Assembly (NCBI GenBank): GCA_025937235.1 | Contig: JAICRU010000029.1 | Span: forward strand, 1 to 33,535 | Source of the DNA: Acidimicrobiia bacterium | GTDB taxonomy: Bacteria > Actinomycetota > Acidimicrobiia > Spongiisociales > ZC4RG35 | Length of the DNA stretch: 33,535 nt | Direction of reading: 5' to 3' | In this document: piece by piece, positions 7,352 through 26,577 of the stretch | How positions within the stretch are numbered: the stretch's first letter is position 1 | How the letters are laid out: each line of letters opens with the position of its first letter | Notes under the pieces: model-generated | Seen by the model: the letters and a program-made list of their open reading frames with translations, nothing else | What the model was told of the DNA's origin: nothing | Databases searched by the model: none | Position numbers and translations under genes: made by a program

Positions 7352-8890
7352 ATGAGCTCGAAGGGTCGGGACGCCATGGCTGGGGCTGCTGCGGTCGCAC
7401 TCGCGCTCGGCGTCTCCGAGCTGGCGGCGGGGCTACTCGGTCTGCCGTCGCTGATCGAAGCCGTGGGCGACTGGGTGATCGATGCCTCACCGACACCGGT
7501 CAAGGAGTGGGCGATTTCGACTTTCGGGACCAATGACAAGCTCGTCCTCCTCATCGGGATCGTGCTCGTCTCGCTCCTGGTCGGTGCCCTGATCGGCATG
7601 ATCGCCCGACGCCGGTTTGGCATCGCCGTCGCCGTTTTCCTCGGGTTCGGCGCTGCGGCGACGCTGGCCGCCACCCGTGATCCGGCCGTTTCGATCGGAG
7701 TGGCAGTGATCCCGGCGGGTCTTGCCATCATCACCGGTCTGGCCGCACTGCGGTGGCTGTACGCACAGAGCCCGGCAGCCGTGGCGCAGGTGGAGGAGCC
7801 GGCCAAACCCGCCGACCCGTCCCGTCGCCGTTTGGTGATCGGGCTGGGCGCGATCCTCGGTGTCGCCGCATTCTCCGGGGGGATCGGGAGGGCCCTGGTC
7901 GACCGCTCGACCCGATCAGTGTCGGGACGCGCCGACGTGAGCTTTCCGGCGGCTGCCGAGTCCCTGCCCCCGATGCCGGAGGCGGCCGAGCTCGGCGTTC
8001 AAGGGCTCAGCCCTGTCATAACACCGAACGAGGTCTTCTACCGGATCGACACCGCATTTCTCAGCGTCCCTCGTGTCGAGATATCCGAATGGGCGATCAC
8101 CGTGGAGGGGCGCGTCGACCGGCCCTACTCCCTCACCTACGACGACCTGCTCGCCATGCCCCTGGTGGAGAGGGACGTGACACTGTCCTGTGTCTCCAAT
8201 GCGGTCGGTGGCGACCTCGTCGGCAACGCTCGGTGGCTCGGGGTTCCCCTCTCCGATATTCTCGACCGGGCCGGGGTGCGCGGAGACGCCGAGCAAGTGG
8301 TGGGGCGCTCGGTCGATGACTTCACCGTCGGGTTCCCGGTCGAGGCGGTCTACGACGGTCGTGACTCCCTGGTGGCCGTGGGGATGAATGGGGAGCCGCT
8401 GCCACTCGAGCACGGATTCCCGGCCCGGCTGGTGGTGGCCGGCCTCTACGGGTATGTGTCGGCCACCAAGTGGCTGTCCTCCATCGAGTTGACCGGTTGG
8501 GACGACTTCGATGCCTACTGGGTCCCGCGTGGCTGGGCCAAGGAAGCGCCCATCAAGACCCAGAGCCGGATCGATACTCCGACCAACAGAACCGCTCTCG
8601 ACCCCGGGAGGCACCGGGTGGCCGGTGTCGCCTGGGCGCCCACCCGGGGGATCTCCAGGGTCGAGGTGAGGCCGGGCGAGGACGCAGAATGGGTCGAGGC
8701 CGAGCTCTCCGAGCCCCTTTCGGACAACTGTTGGCGTCAGTGGGTGGTCGACTGGGATGCCCCCGCCGGGACCCATCGTCTCCAGGTACGTGCCACCGAC
8801 GGTGACGGCAGCGTCCAGACCGATGAGTCGCGCCCCCCTGCTCCCGACGGTGCCACCGGTTGGCACACGATCCAGGTCAGCGTGGGCTGA
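7352..8890 (+). CDS. Membrane-anchored molybdopterin-dependent oxidoreductase, sulfite oxidase fold
   Basis: This 512-aa protein has two parts. Residues 1-178 contain about five membrane segments (roughly 8-32, 62-84, 90-108, 112-137 and 160-176). Residues 215-512 form an extracytoplasmic sulfite-oxidase-type catalytic region: NEVFYRIDTAFLSVP, the molybdenum-ligating cysteine Cys280 in VTLSCVSNAVGG, GVPLSDIL, and PARLVVAGLYGYVSATKWL. A Mo-co dimerisation-like beta domain follows from about residue 400, with GVAWAPTRGISRVEVR. The substrate could be sulfite, a sulfoxide or a protein methionine sulfoxide; the sequence alone does not tell. No heme or haem-binding CxxCH is present, so electrons must pass to an outside partner. 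A separate translocation signal is not needed because of the membrane anchor. Confidence 0.9.
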   Translation: MSSKGRDAMAGAAAVALALGVSELAAGLLGLPSLIEAVGDWVIDASPTPVKEWAISTFGTNDKLVLLIGIVLVSLLVGALIGMIARRRFGIAVAVFLGFGAAATLAATRDPAVSIGVAVIPAGLAIITGLAALRWLYAQSPAAVAQVEEPAKPADPSRRRLVIGLGAILGVAAFSGGIGRALVDRSTRSVSGRADVSFPAAAESLPPMPEAAELGVQGLSPVITPNEVFYRIDTAFLSVPRVEISEWAITVEGRVDRPYSLTYDDLLAMPLVERDVTLSCVSNAVGGDLVGNARWLGVPLSDILDRAGVRGDAEQVVGRSVDDFTVGFPVEAVYDGRDSLVAVGMNGEPLPLEHGFPARLVVAGLYGYVSATKWLSSIELTGWDDFDAYWVPRGWAKEAPIKTQSRIDTPTNRTALDPGRHRVAGVAWAPTRGISRVEVRPGEDAEWVEAELSEPLSDNCWRQWVVDWDAPAGTHRLQVRATDGDGSVQTDESRPPAPDGATGWHTIQVSVG

Positions 8891-8947
8891 TCTCGTCCAA
8901 ATGGGGAGCCACAGATGCGATATGCGGCACTCAGGGTCCCAATTTCA
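8889..8947. repeat. Palindromic intergenic element, copy A
   Basis: The spacer between the molybdoenzyme stop and the convergent gene ending at 8950 is almost entirely this element. It shares five ordered blocks with the copy at 25520-25578: GATCTC, TGGGGAGC (8902-8909), TGCGATATGCG (8916-8926), GGTCCCAATTTC (8935-8946) and a short AAAT block. The ends pair as AAATGGGGA (8899-8907) with TCCCAATTT (8937-8945), one mismatch. It could be a bidirectional terminator, a small structured RNA or a dispersed repeat. Confidence 0.6.
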
Positions 8948-8949
8948 GT

Positions 8950-9906
8950 TCAGTCCTGGTCGGTCGCCGAGATCGCCCAGGACAGCCCGAGATCGGGGCT
9001 GGTGAGGGCGAGGCGAAGAACCCATCCCGTCTCGGGGCTGCCATCGTCGAACCAGTGCCAGGCGAGCGAGGTCGCAGCCCGGCCCATGACGTCTGGATCC
9101 GCCGGCCAGTCCTGGTCGGTCAGCGTGGCCACCGCCCACCAGGCCAGGTAGCGGCCGGCCGCCGCTCCTCGCCGGCGCCCATGGGCTCCGGCCGAAGCCC
9201 CGGCCCACGCCATCCAGGCCATGCCCGAACCGGGGCCGAGATCGGCCGCCCGAGCCCGGGTCATGCCCAACGCGGCAATAGCGGCCAGATGGTCTCCCTC
9301 CGCGGCGGCGGTCTGGCACCGGCCGTTGGATTGGTCGGTCCAGGCCTCGACCAGGTCTGCCAGTGCAGCGGCGGAGGGAAGATCGTCGATCGTCGTTGGG
9401 TTTTCCGGTAGTTCCACGACCAGAGTTGGTGGCAGCGATGGGGAGGGCGCCTCGATCCCATCACTCTTGTATGTCGCCGTCTCGTAAGCCGGCTCCCAGG
9501 GCTGGAGGTGCGCGGGCAGGTCCGGGATCTCATCCACCCGGTCGCCGCGCACGACCCTCTCTGCGGCGAAGGTGTCTCGGTCGGGCCCGGGCGTCAGGTG
9601 CGGATCCATCTCTGCCCACGTCTTGGTGCTCGCCGCCACCTCGGGAAGGGGGCCCAGACCGAATCTGGAGCCGCCTTCCGACACGACCGACCCGGCAATG
9701 GGGGCCGGGGCCTCGAGAGCCAGGCGATAACGGATGTGCTCCTCCACACCCCAGACCTGCTTTCCCCTGGTCACCGCCTCGGCACATCGCCGTCTCAATT
9801 CGAGAAGCCGGTCCCAGTCCCGGGCGGCACACAGCCCATCGATCACTCGCAACAGCTCATCGGTGTCTGACGACTCGATTGCTTCGATCGCCCGTGGCCA
9901 GGTCAT
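8950..9906 (-). CDS. Conserved-looking hypothetical protein, 318 aa
   Basis: I do not recognise this protein. The N-terminal 60 residues look helical and repeat-like (DELLRVIDGLCAARDWDRLLELRRRC). The middle is rich in Pro and acidic residues (about 90-180). The C-terminal half is an Ala/Trp-rich helical domain (GMAWMAWAGASAGAHGRRRG, then AAAGRYLAWWAVATL) that ends in WVLRLALTSPDLGLSWAIS. There is no signal peptide or clear membrane span. The ATG at 9906 overlaps the TGA of the rhodanese gene (ATGA, 9903-9906), so it is translationally coupled to it. A longer open frame upstream only reads through sseA out of frame. The last residues, about diagonal to a substrate fold, give no catalytic motif. 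Confidence 0.7.
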   Translation of the reverse strand: MTWPRAIEAIESSDTDELLRVIDGLCAARDWDRLLELRRRCAEAVTRGKQVWGVEEHIRYRLALEAPAPIAGSVVSEGGSRFGLGPLPEVAASTKTWAEMDPHLTPGPDRDTFAAERVVRGDRVDEIPDLPAHLQPWEPAYETATYKSDGIEAPSPSLPPTLVVELPENPTTIDDLPSAAALADLVEAWTDQSNGRCQTAAAEGDHLAAIAALGMTRARAADLGPGSGMAWMAWAGASAGAHGRRRGAAAGRYLAWWAVATLTDQDWPADPDVMGRAATSLAWHWFDDGSPETGWVLRLALTSPDLGLSWAISATDQD

Positions 9907-11031: not shown

Positions 11032-11892
11032 CTCCTCGATGGTACCTACGAGCTCTTTCGCTCTCACTATGGCCGCAAGGACACCGTCACCGGCCCGGAC
11101 GGACAGGATCTGAAGGCGACCCTGGGGATCATGGAGTCCACCCTCGCCCTGCTCCGAGAGCCGGAGGTGACCCATCTCGCTGCCAGTTTCGACACCGTGA
11201 TCGAGTCCTTTCGCAACGTCATGTTCCCCTACTACAAGTCCTCTGCAGGCATGGACCCCGATCTGCTCGCCCAGTTCCCCGTCGCCGAGACCGCTTTGGA
11301 GGCCCTCGGTGTCGTGGTGTGGCGGAACATCGAGTTCGAAGCCGACGACGCCATCGCCACGGCCGCCATCCGCTGGGTCGAGGACGTCGATCAGGTGGTG
11401 ATCGCAACTCCGGACAAGGACTTGAACCAACTCGTCATCGGGGACCGGATCGTCACCTACAACCGCCGTGAGCAAAAGATCCTCGACGAGAGAGCCGTGG
11501 TGGACAAGTTCGGGATACACCCCGAGTCGATACCCGACTATCTCGCCTTGGTGGGCGACACCGCCGACGGCGTACCCGGGTTGCCCGGGTGGGGCGCCAA
11601 GTCCGCCTCGACCGTCTTGGCCCGTTATCCGCGTCTGGAGCTGATCCCCGAGTCGGCGTCCGATTGGGAGGTGACGGTTCGCGGGGGCGACAAGCTGGCC
11701 GCGGTGCTGAGCGAGAATCACGATCTGGCCTATCTGTACCGGGAGCTCACCACCTTGCGGTTCGACGTCCCCATCGATGAGACCCTGGGCGACCTGGAAT
11801 GGAAGGGTGTCCCCCGCCGCCGCTTCGAGGAATTCTGCACCTCGGTCGGCTTCGACCCCGACTCGATCCGGGTTCATCGCTGGGCGGACTGA
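11020..11892 (+). CDS. 5'-3' exonuclease / flap endonuclease-like protein
   Basis: The 290-aa protein corresponds to the stand-alone PIN-like 5'-3' exonuclease domain also found at the N-terminus of DNA polymerase I. Metal ligands are seen as Asp7 (HLLDGTYELF), Asp58 (AASFDTVIES), Glu107-Ala-Asp109-Asp110 (EADDAIAT), Asp132 and Asp134 (TPDKDLNQLV), and Asp180 and Asp183 (VGDTADGVPGLPGWGAKSA). The last motif is part of the helix-3-turn-helix that grips duplex DNA. The likely role is removing 5' flaps or RNA primers. GTG 11020 is the natural start, with MRVHLLDGTYELFR reading straight into the first metal site. Its 5' end overlaps the divergent gene by 12 bp. Confidence 0.9.
   Translation: MRVHLLDGTYELFRSHYGRKDTVTGPDGQDLKATLGIMESTLALLREPEVTHLAASFDTVIESFRNVMFPYYKSSAGMDPDLLAQFPVAETALEALGVVVWRNIEFEADDAIATAAIRWVEDVDQVVIATPDKDLNQLVIGDRIVTYNRREQKILDERAVVDKFGIHPESIPDYLALVGDTADGVPGLPGWGAKSASTVLARYPRLELIPESASDWEVTVRGGDKLAAVLSENHDLAYLYRELTTLRFDVPIDETLGDLEWKGVPRRRFEEFCTSVGFDPDSIRVHRWAD
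11039..11044 (-). promoter_or_regulatory. Putative leaderless -10 element of the small gene at 10678-11031
   Basis: On the minus strand TACCAT ends 7 nt before the GTG at 11031. It sits inside codons 7-9 of the exonuclease gene, so the two divergent promoters are interlocked with each other's coding sequence. Confidence 0.45.
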
Positions 11893-11905
11893 CCCCGTGG
11901 GTGGG

Positions 11906-11945
11906 CCGTGTGCAGGCGACCATCTCCGTGGGTGGTCACACACGG
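11906..11945. terminator. Hairpin between convergent genes, candidate bidirectional terminator
   Basis: CCGTGTG (11906-11912) pairs with CACACGG (11939-11945). An inner stem pairs GACCA (11918-11922) with TGGTC (11933-11937). It fills the 56-bp spacer between the exonuclease stop and the ABC transporter stop. No T-tract follows on either side. Confidence 0.45.
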
Positions 11946-11948
11946 CTC

Positions 11949-13925
11949 TCAGGCCGCCGCTTCGGGCTCTTCCTGGGCCCCGCTGAACTGCGCGTTGTAG
12001 AGAGCGGCATAGGCGCCGTCGAGGGCGACCAGTTCGTCGTGGGTGCCTTGCTCCACGATTCGGCCCTCCTCCATCACCAGGATCAGATCGGCGTCCCGGA
12101 TGGTGGAAAGACGGTGGGCGATCACGAAGCTGGTCCGATCGGTGCGCAGGGCGGCCATGGCATGCTGGAGGAGAAGCTCGGTTCTGGTGTCGACCGAGCT
12201 GGTGGCCTCGTCCAGGATCAGCAGCGATGGGTCGGCGAGGAAAGCGCGAGCGATGGTGATCAGCTGCTTCTCGCCGGCACTCACGTTGCTCCCCTCGTCA
12301 TCGATGATCGTGTCATAACCGTCAGGGAGACTGTGGACGAAGCGGTCGACGAAGGTGGCCTTGGCCGCGTCGAGGATCTCCTCCTCGCTGGCATCGGGGC
12401 GCCCGTAGGCGATGTTCTCCCGGATCGTCCCCTTGAACAGCCAGGTGTCCTGCAGGACCATGCCGATCTCTGAGCGCAGATCGGACCGTCGCATATGGGC
12501 GATGTCCACGTCGTCGAGGGTGATCCGCCCCGAGTCGAGCTCGTAGAAGCGCATGATCAGGTTGACCAGGGTGGTCTTGCCGGCACCGGTCGGGCCGACG
12601 ATCGCCACCTGCTGGCCTGGCTCGACCGTGAGGGACAGATCCTCGATGAGGGGGCGGTCCTCCTCGTAGCGGAAGGACACCTCCTCGAACACGACCCGTC
12701 CGTGTCGGTCGCCGACCATCTCCGGGACCTGGTCGTCGGGGGCCTCCGCATCGGCATCGAGCAGCTCGAACACCCGCTCCGCCGAGGCGACGCCGGATTG
12801 GAGGAGGTTCACCATCGATGCGATCTGGGTGACCGGGTGGGTGAACTGCCGGGAGTACTGGATGAAGGCCTGGACGTCACCGAGGCTCATCGTCCCACTG
12901 GCAACCCGCAGCCCGCCGACCACCGCGATGACGACGTAGTTGAGGTTCCCGATGAACATCATGATCGGCATGATCAGCCCGGAGAGGAACTGGGCGCCGA
13001 AGCTGGCCTTGTAGAGCTCCTCGTTCTCGACTTCGAAGCCCGCCTGGCTCTCCCCCTGCCGCCCATACACCTTGACCAGGGAATGACCGGTGAAGGCCTC
13101 CTCGATCTGGGCATTGAGGGTCCCGGTCCGCCGCCATTGGGTGATGAACTGGGTCTGGGAGCGCTTCATGACCAACCCGGCGAGGACCATCGACACGGGG
13201 ATCGTGACCAGGGCGATGACGGCCAGGGCCGGCGAGATGGAGAACATCATCCCGACGACGAAGAGGACCGTGAGGACCGAGGTGAGTAGCTGGCTCATCG
13301 TCTGTTGCAGGGTCTGCGAGACGTTGTCGATGTCGTTGGTGACACGGCTCAGCAGCTCGCCACGGGGCTGGCGATCGAAGTAGCGGAGCGGAAGGCGATT
13401 CAGCTTGTCCTCGACCTCGCCCCTGAGCCGGAAGATGGTGCGCTGAACGACGTCGTTGAGCAGATAGCCCTGGAGGAAGCCGAGGAGTGCCGATGCCGCA
13501 TACAGGGCGAGGGCGACGAGGAGCGCAGTGCCCAGGGCCTGGAAGTCGATGCCCTGCCCCGGCACGAGATCGACTCCGCCGAGCAGATCGGCGATCTGGC
13601 CCTGGCCCTGTGCCCGGGCCGCATCGATCGCCTCGGCCTTTGTCGTCCCCTCAGGCAGACGTGACCCGATGACCCCGGCAAAGATCAGATCGGTGGCCTG
13701 CCCGAGCACCCTCGGCCCGATCGCGGCGAGCCCGACGCTGACGACGGCAGTCAGGAAGACGAGCATGACCCGCAGCCGCTCGGGGCGGAGCCGGGCGGCC
13801 AGCCGTCTTGCCGAAGAACCGAAATCGAGTGACTTCTGCCCGATCATGCCGCCCCCGAACGGTCCGCGCCCCGGCCCGGGCCCGGCCTGGACCCTCTCGG
13901 TGGCCTTCATCGTGCGATCGCTCAC
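11949..13925 (-). CDS. ABC exporter half-transporter, catalytically complete subunit
   Basis: This 658-aa type I exporter half has a membrane domain (about 50-385, six spans) fused to an ATPase domain. Walker A is GPTGAGKT at 444-451, the Q-loop is at Gln492, Walker B with catalytic Glu573 is LLILDEATSSVD, and the switch His604 is in VIAHRLS. Its signature motif is VSAGEK at 548-553 instead of LSGGQ. The partner has a normal signature but a faulty catalytic site, so this subunit supplies the active Walker A/B and His of the working site. A long linker with two Gly/Gln-rich stretches (about 85-125) sits between the first two spans. The GTG start overlaps the partner's stop by GTGA. Substrate unknown; multidrug or lipid export is typical. 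Confidence 0.93.
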   Translation of the reverse strand: MSDRTMKATERVQAGPGPGRGPFGGGMIGQKSLDFGSSARRLAARLRPERLRVMLVFLTAVVSVGLAAIGPRVLGQATDLIFAGVIGSRLPEGTTKAEAIDAARAQGQGQIADLLGGVDLVPGQGIDFQALGTALLVALALYAASALLGFLQGYLLNDVVQRTIFRLRGEVEDKLNRLPLRYFDRQPRGELLSRVTNDIDNVSQTLQQTMSQLLTSVLTVLFVVGMMFSISPALAVIALVTIPVSMVLAGLVMKRSQTQFITQWRRTGTLNAQIEEAFTGHSLVKVYGRQGESQAGFEVENEELYKASFGAQFLSGLIMPIMMFIGNLNYVVIAVVGGLRVASGTMSLGDVQAFIQYSRQFTHPVTQIASMVNLLQSGVASAERVFELLDADAEAPDDQVPEMVGDRHGRVVFEEVSFRYEEDRPLIEDLSLTVEPGQQVAIVGPTGAGKTTLVNLIMRFYELDSGRITLDDVDIAHMRRSDLRSEIGMVLQDTWLFKGTIRENIAYGRPDASEEEILDAAKATFVDRFVHSLPDGYDTIIDDEGSNVSAGEKQLITIARAFLADPSLLILDEATSSVDTRTELLLQHAMAALRTDRTSFVIAHRLSTIRDADLILVMEEGRIVEQGTHDELVALDGAYAALYNAQFSGAQEEPEAAA

Positions 13926-25242: not shown

Positions 25243-25521
25243 ATGACTAGCAGCGTGACCTTCGATTTGAAGTTCTCCTCATGGAGGGAGGATGCTGCCT
25301 GTCTCGGTGTCGTGGAAGAAGTCTCGTTCTTCCCCGATACCGAGGACCTGTCCGCAATCGCACAGGCCAAGGCGATCTGCGCTTCCTGCCCGGTAGCCTC
25401 GGAATGTCTCACCTGGGCCATCGAGACCAACCAGAGTGAGGGGATCTGGGGGGGTCACACTCCCAAGGAGCGCCGCTCCATCCGCCGCCGCTGGATCGAG
25501 GAGATCGAGCGCGCCTCGTAG
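25243..25521 (+). CDS. whiB: WhiB-family iron-sulfur transcriptional regulator
   Basis: The 92-aa protein is a complete WhiB-like (Wbl) regulator, restricted to actinobacteria and their phages. Cys20, Cys46, Cys49 and Cys55 (DAACLG, then AICASCPVASEC) bind a 4Fe-4S cluster that senses redox or nitric oxide. The turn GIWGG (67-71) is followed by a basic helix (KERRSIRRRW) that contacts DNA; Wbl proteins act through the sigma factor region 4. The start is ATG 25243; GTG 25255 is a possible alternative. The subgroup cannot be named from this sequence alone. The gene stands alone between the acyl-CoA dehydrogenase and a convergent operon. Its promoter may be ECF-sigma dependent. Confidence 0.95.
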   Translation: MTSSVTFDLKFSSWREDAACLGVVEEVSFFPDTEDLSAIAQAKAICASCPVASECLTWAIETNQSEGIWGGHTPKERRSIRRRWIEEIERAS

Positions 25522-25578
25522 ATCTCTGCGAAATTGGGTTGGGGAGCTGCGATATGCGACGCGCCCGGTCCAATTTCG
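25520..25578. repeat. Palindromic intergenic element, copy B
   Basis: Between whiB and the convergent M14 gene, CGAAATTGG (25529-25537) and CCAATTTCG (25570-25578) form a perfect 9-bp inverted repeat around a 32-bp centre. Shared with the copy at 8889-8947 are GATCTC, TGGGGAGC (25540-25547), TGCGATATGCG (25548-25558) and GGTCCAATTTC (25567-25577). Both copies begin at the stop of a plus-strand gene and end 3-7 bp before the stop of a convergent one. Confidence 0.6.
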
Positions 25579-25584
25579 GTGGGG

Positions 25585-26577
25585 TCACCGTCTCTCCGCC
25601 GGCTCGTCGACGTCTGGGCCTCTCTCGGCGGCCACATGCAGCAGGGGGTCGCCGGGGTTGACCAGAGGGTTGAGGGTCCGGGCGATGACCCAGCCCGATT
25701 GCGGAGCCTTGACCCGGGTGGGCCGGACTCCGAACGCATCCGAGATGGCGGCCACCTCCTCGCCGCCCTCCACCCTGTCACCCAGCCGTGGCTTGATCTC
25801 GACCAGCCCGCCTCGGCGAGCCCTGACCCAACGGGTTCGTCGGACCAATGTGGTGGTGCCCGCTCTGGGCAGTCTCATATCGATCATCCCGAGGGCTCGG
25901 AGGGTGCGCATGACGCCGTTGACTCCGAAGATCACCGACGCTTCGTCCAGACGGTCGGCTTGGCCGGCCTCGTAGAGCAGCATCTTGATCCCTTGTTCCG
26001 TGGCGGCCTGACGCAGTGACCCGTCCCTGACTCTGGCCTTGATGGTGAACGGCGCGCCGAAGGCTCGCGCCAGCTCCAGGGTTCCCGGATCGTCGATGTC
26101 GGCCCTCAGCTGGGGGTGGTTCGTCCGGTGATTGGAGGCCGTGTGGCAGTCGATTCCCACCGAGCAGTGCGACACCACCTCTCTCATGAAGAGATGTGCC
26201 AGACGTGAGGCGGTGGACCCGCGGGGAGACCCCGGGAACACACGATTCAGGTCGCGTCGGTCCGGGGCGTATCGAGACCTCATCATGAAGCCGAGGGGGT
26301 TGACGATGGGCACGGCGATCACGGCGCCGCGCAAGCTCTTGGCGTCCAGGGCCCTCATCACCTTCCGCACCACTTCCACGCCGTTGATCTCGTCCCCGTG
26401 GATCCCACCCGAGACCCATACATTGGGCCCGGAGGTGCGCCCGTTGATGACGGCGATGGGGAGCGAAGCCTCGGTCCCGGCCGGCAGGTGGGCGAAGGGG
26501 AGCTCGATCCGGGTCTTCCGCCCCGGAGGGACGGTGACCTTCCCGATCGTTATCGGGTCGTTGCGGGTCTCAACCAC
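25585..26577 (-). CDS. M14-like zinc deacylase (succinylglutamate desuccinylase / aspartoacylase family)
   Basis: The protein is 330 aa from GTG 26577. The zinc ligands are His60 and Glu63 (GGIHGDE) and His145 (IDCHTAS). [10 protein letters not shown] at 107-116 binds the substrate carboxylate, and Glu203 (LLYEAG) is the expected catalytic base. The C-terminal part (about 248-320) is a barrel-like lipoyl/HlyD-type domain ([17 protein letters not shown] and [17 protein letters not shown]). Family members hydrolyse amide bonds of N-acylated amino acids. Here it lies last in an operon with RimK- and RimB-like genes, overlapping RimK by 8 bp (26570-26577), so a gamma- or alpha-glutamyl peptide is a plausible target (inference). 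Confidence 0.85.

Follow-up and report, generated by a model that had tools for sequence, protein, structure and literature searches.

REP sequences of the GTAG and CGTC superfamilies (PMC3733652) are short, multicopy intergenic palindromes that usually follow coding regions, in gaps flanked by convergent or unidirectional genes, with lineage-specific sequences and sometimes in arrays; those of the CGTC superfamily also lack a dedicated transposase (PMC3733652). Most known REP-like repeats come from Proteobacteria, and RAYT enzymes account for many of them. In REP/RAYT systems and REPINs, non-autonomous palindromes are dispersed through the genome and each lineage has its own type. MITEs, given as 70–300 bp long in bacteria, are non-coding, have inverted-repeat ends and reveal their insertion history through empty sites, while intrinsic terminators form a stem-loop just behind the stop codon that is usable on both strands.

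These likenesses recur in a repeat from Acidimicrobiia, a class of Actinomycetota, which nonetheless differs from each of the systems. It is longer than REPs (~50 bp), near-perfect when young and present in fewer copies, and forms a REP-like superfamily across its class without RAYT; the element-bearing genomes tested contain no Y1_Tnp gene. It is shorter than MITEs, and neither a parent IS nor a target duplication was found (the genomes are drafts and the flanks old). Unlike intrinsic terminators, it has no U-tract, its primary sequence is conserved, and most of the homologous gene ends examined in one congeneric species (G002) lack it. The original prediction, made from two copies, had matched them to no known terminator or repeat type. 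An Rfam search of the window gave 0 matches at gathering score; REP- and MITE-like repeats, which the prediction did not name, are the closest kind.

Results

Two copies of the repeat lie between convergent genes in the window, the whole 33,535-nt stretch of an Acidimicrobiia genome (G000) that we analyzed. Copy A (8895..8946, minus strand in consensus orientation) matches the R1 sequence model described below with 37.7 bits (E = 4.5e-9). It consists of a left arm AAATGGGGA (8899..8907), one substitution away from the AAATTGGGA of its ortholog in the congeneric G001, a central 11-mer TGCGATATGCG (8916..8926) within which CGnAT forms a conserved block, and a right arm TCCCAATTT (8937..8945). 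Copy B (25526..25579, minus strand; 32.7 bits, E = 1.6e-7) has the left arm AAATTGGGT (25531..25539), the same 11-mer (25548..25558) and a right arm TCCAATTT (25569..25576), which has one C fewer than the arm aligned with it in the G001 ortholog, TCCCAATTT. The 59-bp gap holding copy A separates a molybdopterin oxidoreductase-like gene (7352..8890, plus strand; PF00174, E = 9.3e-43), whose stop codon is 8 nt from the arm, from a gene matching no family (8950..9906, minus strand; stop codon 4 nt from the arm). Copy B occupies a 63-bp gap between a WhiB-family regulator (25255..25521, plus strand; PF02467, E = 4e-21; stop codon 9 nt from the arm) and an AstE/AspA-type deacylase (25585..26577, minus strand; PF24827, E = 5.6e-40; stop codon 8 nt from the arm). 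Rereading the sequence and the gene calls upheld the shared blocks, their coordinates and the convergent setting of both copies as originally predicted. Insertion and deletion differences had also been read as a sign of structure, a reading that fails here: copy B merely lost one C. The proposed end-to-end stem survives in part, the outer ~9 bp being generally kept (with the substitution in A and the lost C in B) and the inner stem not. Against shuffled sequences, the plus strand of copy A folds no better (z = −0.24) and copy B folds better (z = −3.58). A third convergent gap in the window (11892-11949) carries another inverted repeat (GGGCCGTGTG...CACACGGCTC) outside this repeat family.

The repeat is a dispersed multicopy family. 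The 3.08-Mb genome has five exact occurrences of the 11-mer, four of them inside such palindromic elements, versus zero for the reversed control, and the pattern ATTGGG-N24-52-CCCAAT matches 21 palindromes, almost all with a length of exactly 43 bp, versus zero for its control; the resemblance between A and B is thus not chance. The R1 model, built from 14 of these 21 palindromes with copies A and B left out, recovers ~45 copies in G000, A and B included, and >50 in G001 (MAG OF_bin.16), a count well above two, the outcome that the original prediction had named as support. In the window's genus, from which three species were compared (G000, G001 and G002), the consensus is CGWAATTGGGA-N10-CGnAT-N14-TCCCAATTWCG, with nearly fixed arm spacing. 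Among 34 genomes of the family, the repeat is clear only in this genus and in G017, a member of another genus; three more gave one or two marginal matches, and the 11-mer alone, used as a probe in relatives, gave mostly chance matches. One stretch of G000 (C67:17989-23455) holds three copies in 5.5 kb, each kept in G001. Near locus position 2001-2110 of L128 (G001, C58), a half-element duplicate stands beside a full copy, a possible case of slippage or template switching.

Copies lie just behind stop codons. The nearest stop codon is within 20 nt of an arm in 31/34 (G000) and 41/48 (G001) measurable cases, with medians of 8 to 8.5 nt, and in tandem gene pairs the copy usually abuts the stop of the upstream gene, not the start of the next. 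The original prediction had placed the element at convergent gene ends and named copies always at 3′ ends as support. The 3′-end position holds nearly always, to within ~20 nt of a stop codon, but gene context in G000 and G001 together, by the calls of a purpose-written codon-usage caller, is convergent for 29 copies, tandem for 48 and divergent for 8. Some copies provide the stop codon themselves, as TAA in CGTAATT in the window's genus and as E-I-A-stop (GAAATTGCGTAG) in G017; several G017 genes (at L091, L094 and L099) end in ...EIA-stop because the element supplies their last codons and stop. Across the class, 38/68 measured copies have a stop codon at most 20 nt away. REPs located no more than 15 nt from a stop codon can reduce translation in E. 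coli (PMC12306157), and by analogy these copies could possibly lower translation too, since the same geometry is common here.

Comparison of the three congeners reveals an insertion history. All but three G000 copies have an ortholog, matched through the flanks, in one or both of G001 and G002, nearly always in G001 (C13:15583 for copy A, C139:7704 for copy B), and the flanks of G000/G001 ortholog pairs are ~89% identical. G002 has no element at most of the orthologous sites that align, those of copy A, copy B, C67:20868, C67:23402, C3:3241, C33:4588, C26:14865 and others among them, so that, as with MITEs, inserted elements face empty sites in a relative. Degenerate copies are retained in G002 at C144:1710, C11:910, C114:25073, C126:3433 and C52:19913. 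Sites filled in G000 and G001 and mostly empty in G002 indicate spread by insertion followed by staying put: expansion of the repeat postdates the divergence of G002, fixation predates the separation of G000 from G001 and, on these data, little or no movement has followed. Losses in G002 could also explain its empty sites but are less economical. The copy upstream of metX (L043:1495-1549, L137:2001-2055) is unlike other copies in that all 59 bases, along with most of the flanking sequence, are the same in G000 and G001, and a degenerate copy occupies the same place in G002.

Palindromes of one architecture and lineage-specific arms occur across the class. G017 contains 15 near-identical young copies, each exactly 46 bp long and some identical (13 distinct, or 12 once reverse complements are merged), with arms AAATTGCGTA...TACGCAATTT; where their halves differ from copy to copy, they match each other better than shuffled halves (P = 0.003). 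A hairpin model (CM) made from these copies and scanned over 395 class genomes found such palindromes in at least 24, among them many genera of family f2 and single genera of f11, f27 and f28; copy numbers are lower bounds, with no more than 14 candidates scored per genome. Members are ~50 bp long and lack coding capacity, with arms of ~10 bp (TTCTTGCGTA, TCTGGCGTA, GAAGTTGCGTA and others) around a core GCC-nATn-GGC or a relative of it, and young copies are near-perfect palindromes over ~50 bp that fold with median z of −9.6 to −11.6 against mononucleotide shuffles. Some genomes have arrays of copies with a ~70-bp period; BIME-like tandem palindrome arrays of this kind are seen at L301, L303, L289, L292, L293 and L253 (G105, G107 and G125).

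Halves are matched within these wider copies. The class alignment has double compensatory changes in 14/15 predicted pairs, counts that are inflated because both strands of each palindrome were aligned and fitted to a hairpin model. Within nine f2-family genomes, 20 copies have perfectly matching halves versus 7.3 expected, in a test biased upward because the CM search favors palindromes. Despite this bias, cases such as G097, in which six of seven distinct copies have perfectly matched 7-mers, are hard to explain otherwise. Template switching during replication perfects palindromes and could keep halves matched without selection. Beyond the class, the exact core pattern was found in 0/396 phylum genomes, ~358 of them outside the class, a weak negative, since the divergent type in the window itself also escapes this pattern. 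Viral contigs gave 0 matches with two patterns, and when the literature was searched for the arms and for palindromes in Acidimicrobiia, none of the papers listed was relevant.

In the window's genus, arms and center keep their sequence and the inner stem decays. Over 34 ortholog pairs, substitutions per site are 0.056/0.043 in the arms, 0.108 in the center, 0.16/0.21 in the inner segments and 0.11 in the flanks, which are largely coding (arms versus inner segments, P = 5e-16 Fisher's test). An ortholog pair requires detection in both species; since few G000 copies went unpaired, the resulting bias is small. Watson–Crick pairing in this genus is about that of shuffles at every column pair, with no covariation; columns 7/53, both A/T, vary independently (AT 21, AA 12, TT 10, TA 7). 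Covariation, whose absence from related genomes the original prediction had named among the grounds for refuting it, does occur in other Acidimicrobiia with near-perfect palindromes. The prediction is partly supported: it was right about palindromes dispersed to the 3′ ends of genes, and partly wrong in that, in this genus, sequence and not base pairing is conserved. Sequence kept without pairing points to recognition of duplex DNA in this genus.

One reading of this pattern is that, in the window's genus, the copies are duplex DNA dyads for a host protein, acting as a roadblock, insulator or chromosome-organizing site. Conserved arms, CGnAT center and spacing, together with the independent A/T columns, are what such a site would show, yet we find this reading doubtful: the repeat has an insertion history and is missing at most tested sister-species sites and from most of the family, and the genes at the 13 loci inspected do not resemble a regulon. 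A dyad role may rather be a secondary use of a mobile repeat. Another reading is a bidirectional RNA hairpin at 3′ ends, either a U-tract-less terminator or an mRNA 3′-end protector serving both convergent genes. Proximity to stop codons, convergent or tandem rather than divergent context and the very stable folding of young copies favor it, but the inner stem is not maintained and does not covary in this genus, a terminator scan is empty at A and B, where no U-tract follows, the element is absent at most tested G002 loci, and only ~45 places in the whole genome have it; we judge this reading unlikely. A canonical intrinsic terminator was rejected since no T-run follows the stems at A and B and the plus strand of copy A folds no better than shuffles. 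A role as a 3′-end hairpin or as a protein-binding dyad is possible.

The repeat is not accompanied by RAYT. Y1_Tnp (PF01797) was found in 0/34 family genomes and in 0/22 element-bearing genomes outside the window's genus, while control genomes were positive. Mobilization as a RAYT-dependent REP of the GTAG or CGTC superfamily, suggested by size, palindromic form, 3′-end location and the ~70-bp-period arrays of some genomes, is already contradicted by this absence and by the foot of the hairpin, where the unpaired GTAG/CGTC tag is absent in G000, G017 and the class consensus (GTAG/GCGTC strings occur only inside the stem, in some lineages); we consider it very improbable. The repeat is a short multicopy extragenic palindrome, REP-like in form and place, and for want of tag and RAYT we do not file it as REP. 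Neisseria DNA uptake sequences also form inverted pairs at gene ends, but single arms are not clearly above the G017 background among the matches listed, and a relation to such sequences is extremely improbable. Integron attC sites were rejected on sequence, the arms having no GTT/AAC core and the copies being dispersed.

Discussion

Copies A and B are probably old copies of a mobile palindrome that is non-autonomous and REP/MITE-like and belongs to an Acidimicrobiia-wide superfamily. The superfamily is real and previously unrecorded in the literature searched, and A and B are old, decaying, partly constrained members of it. With no RAYT, autonomous unit, target duplication or viral carrier, we infer an enzyme supplied in trans, which would copy the palindrome by recognizing either its DNA hairpin or its pair of inverted half-sites. 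Insertions behind stop codons would persist because they do least harm there, and arms and center would later be retained through continued binding of the duplex dyad by some host protein or by that enzyme. Against this mobile-palindrome reading, no autonomous copy, candidate enzyme or target-site duplication was found, the empty G002 sites might in principle be losses, and all genomes are drafts. A more specific form of it, offered tentatively, is that a non-HUH/Y1 enzyme moves the superfamily, that the arms co-evolve with this enzyme in each lineage and that, in the window's genus, the arms were co-opted as duplex DNA for a protein to bind. Clean filled and empty orthologous sites, and copies that run from young and perfectly palindromic to old and decaying, mean that the mobilizing enzyme can be sought and the parts of the repeat kept by the host measured.

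Searches for what moves the repeat covered flanks, parent elements and enclosed genes. No direct repeat is enriched at the flanks, which are old, and no parent IS with the same terminal repeats was found in these draft genomes, where IS copies often collapse. No autonomous copy was seen: ~1-kb units between two copies in G017, G097 and G108 hold ordinary-looking genes, by eye alcohol dehydrogenase-like, sugar kinase-like and agmatinase-like, plus a protein type that recurs in G017 and G097. This apparent protein type (L099:577-1515 in G017, L277:1556-2473 in G097), each time between two palindrome copies ~1 kb apart and in genomes of different families, has an N-terminal '...GVFTxxQA...' and a C-terminal '...QNxAxLLGWTxxRxTW...' and is a candidate associated gene.
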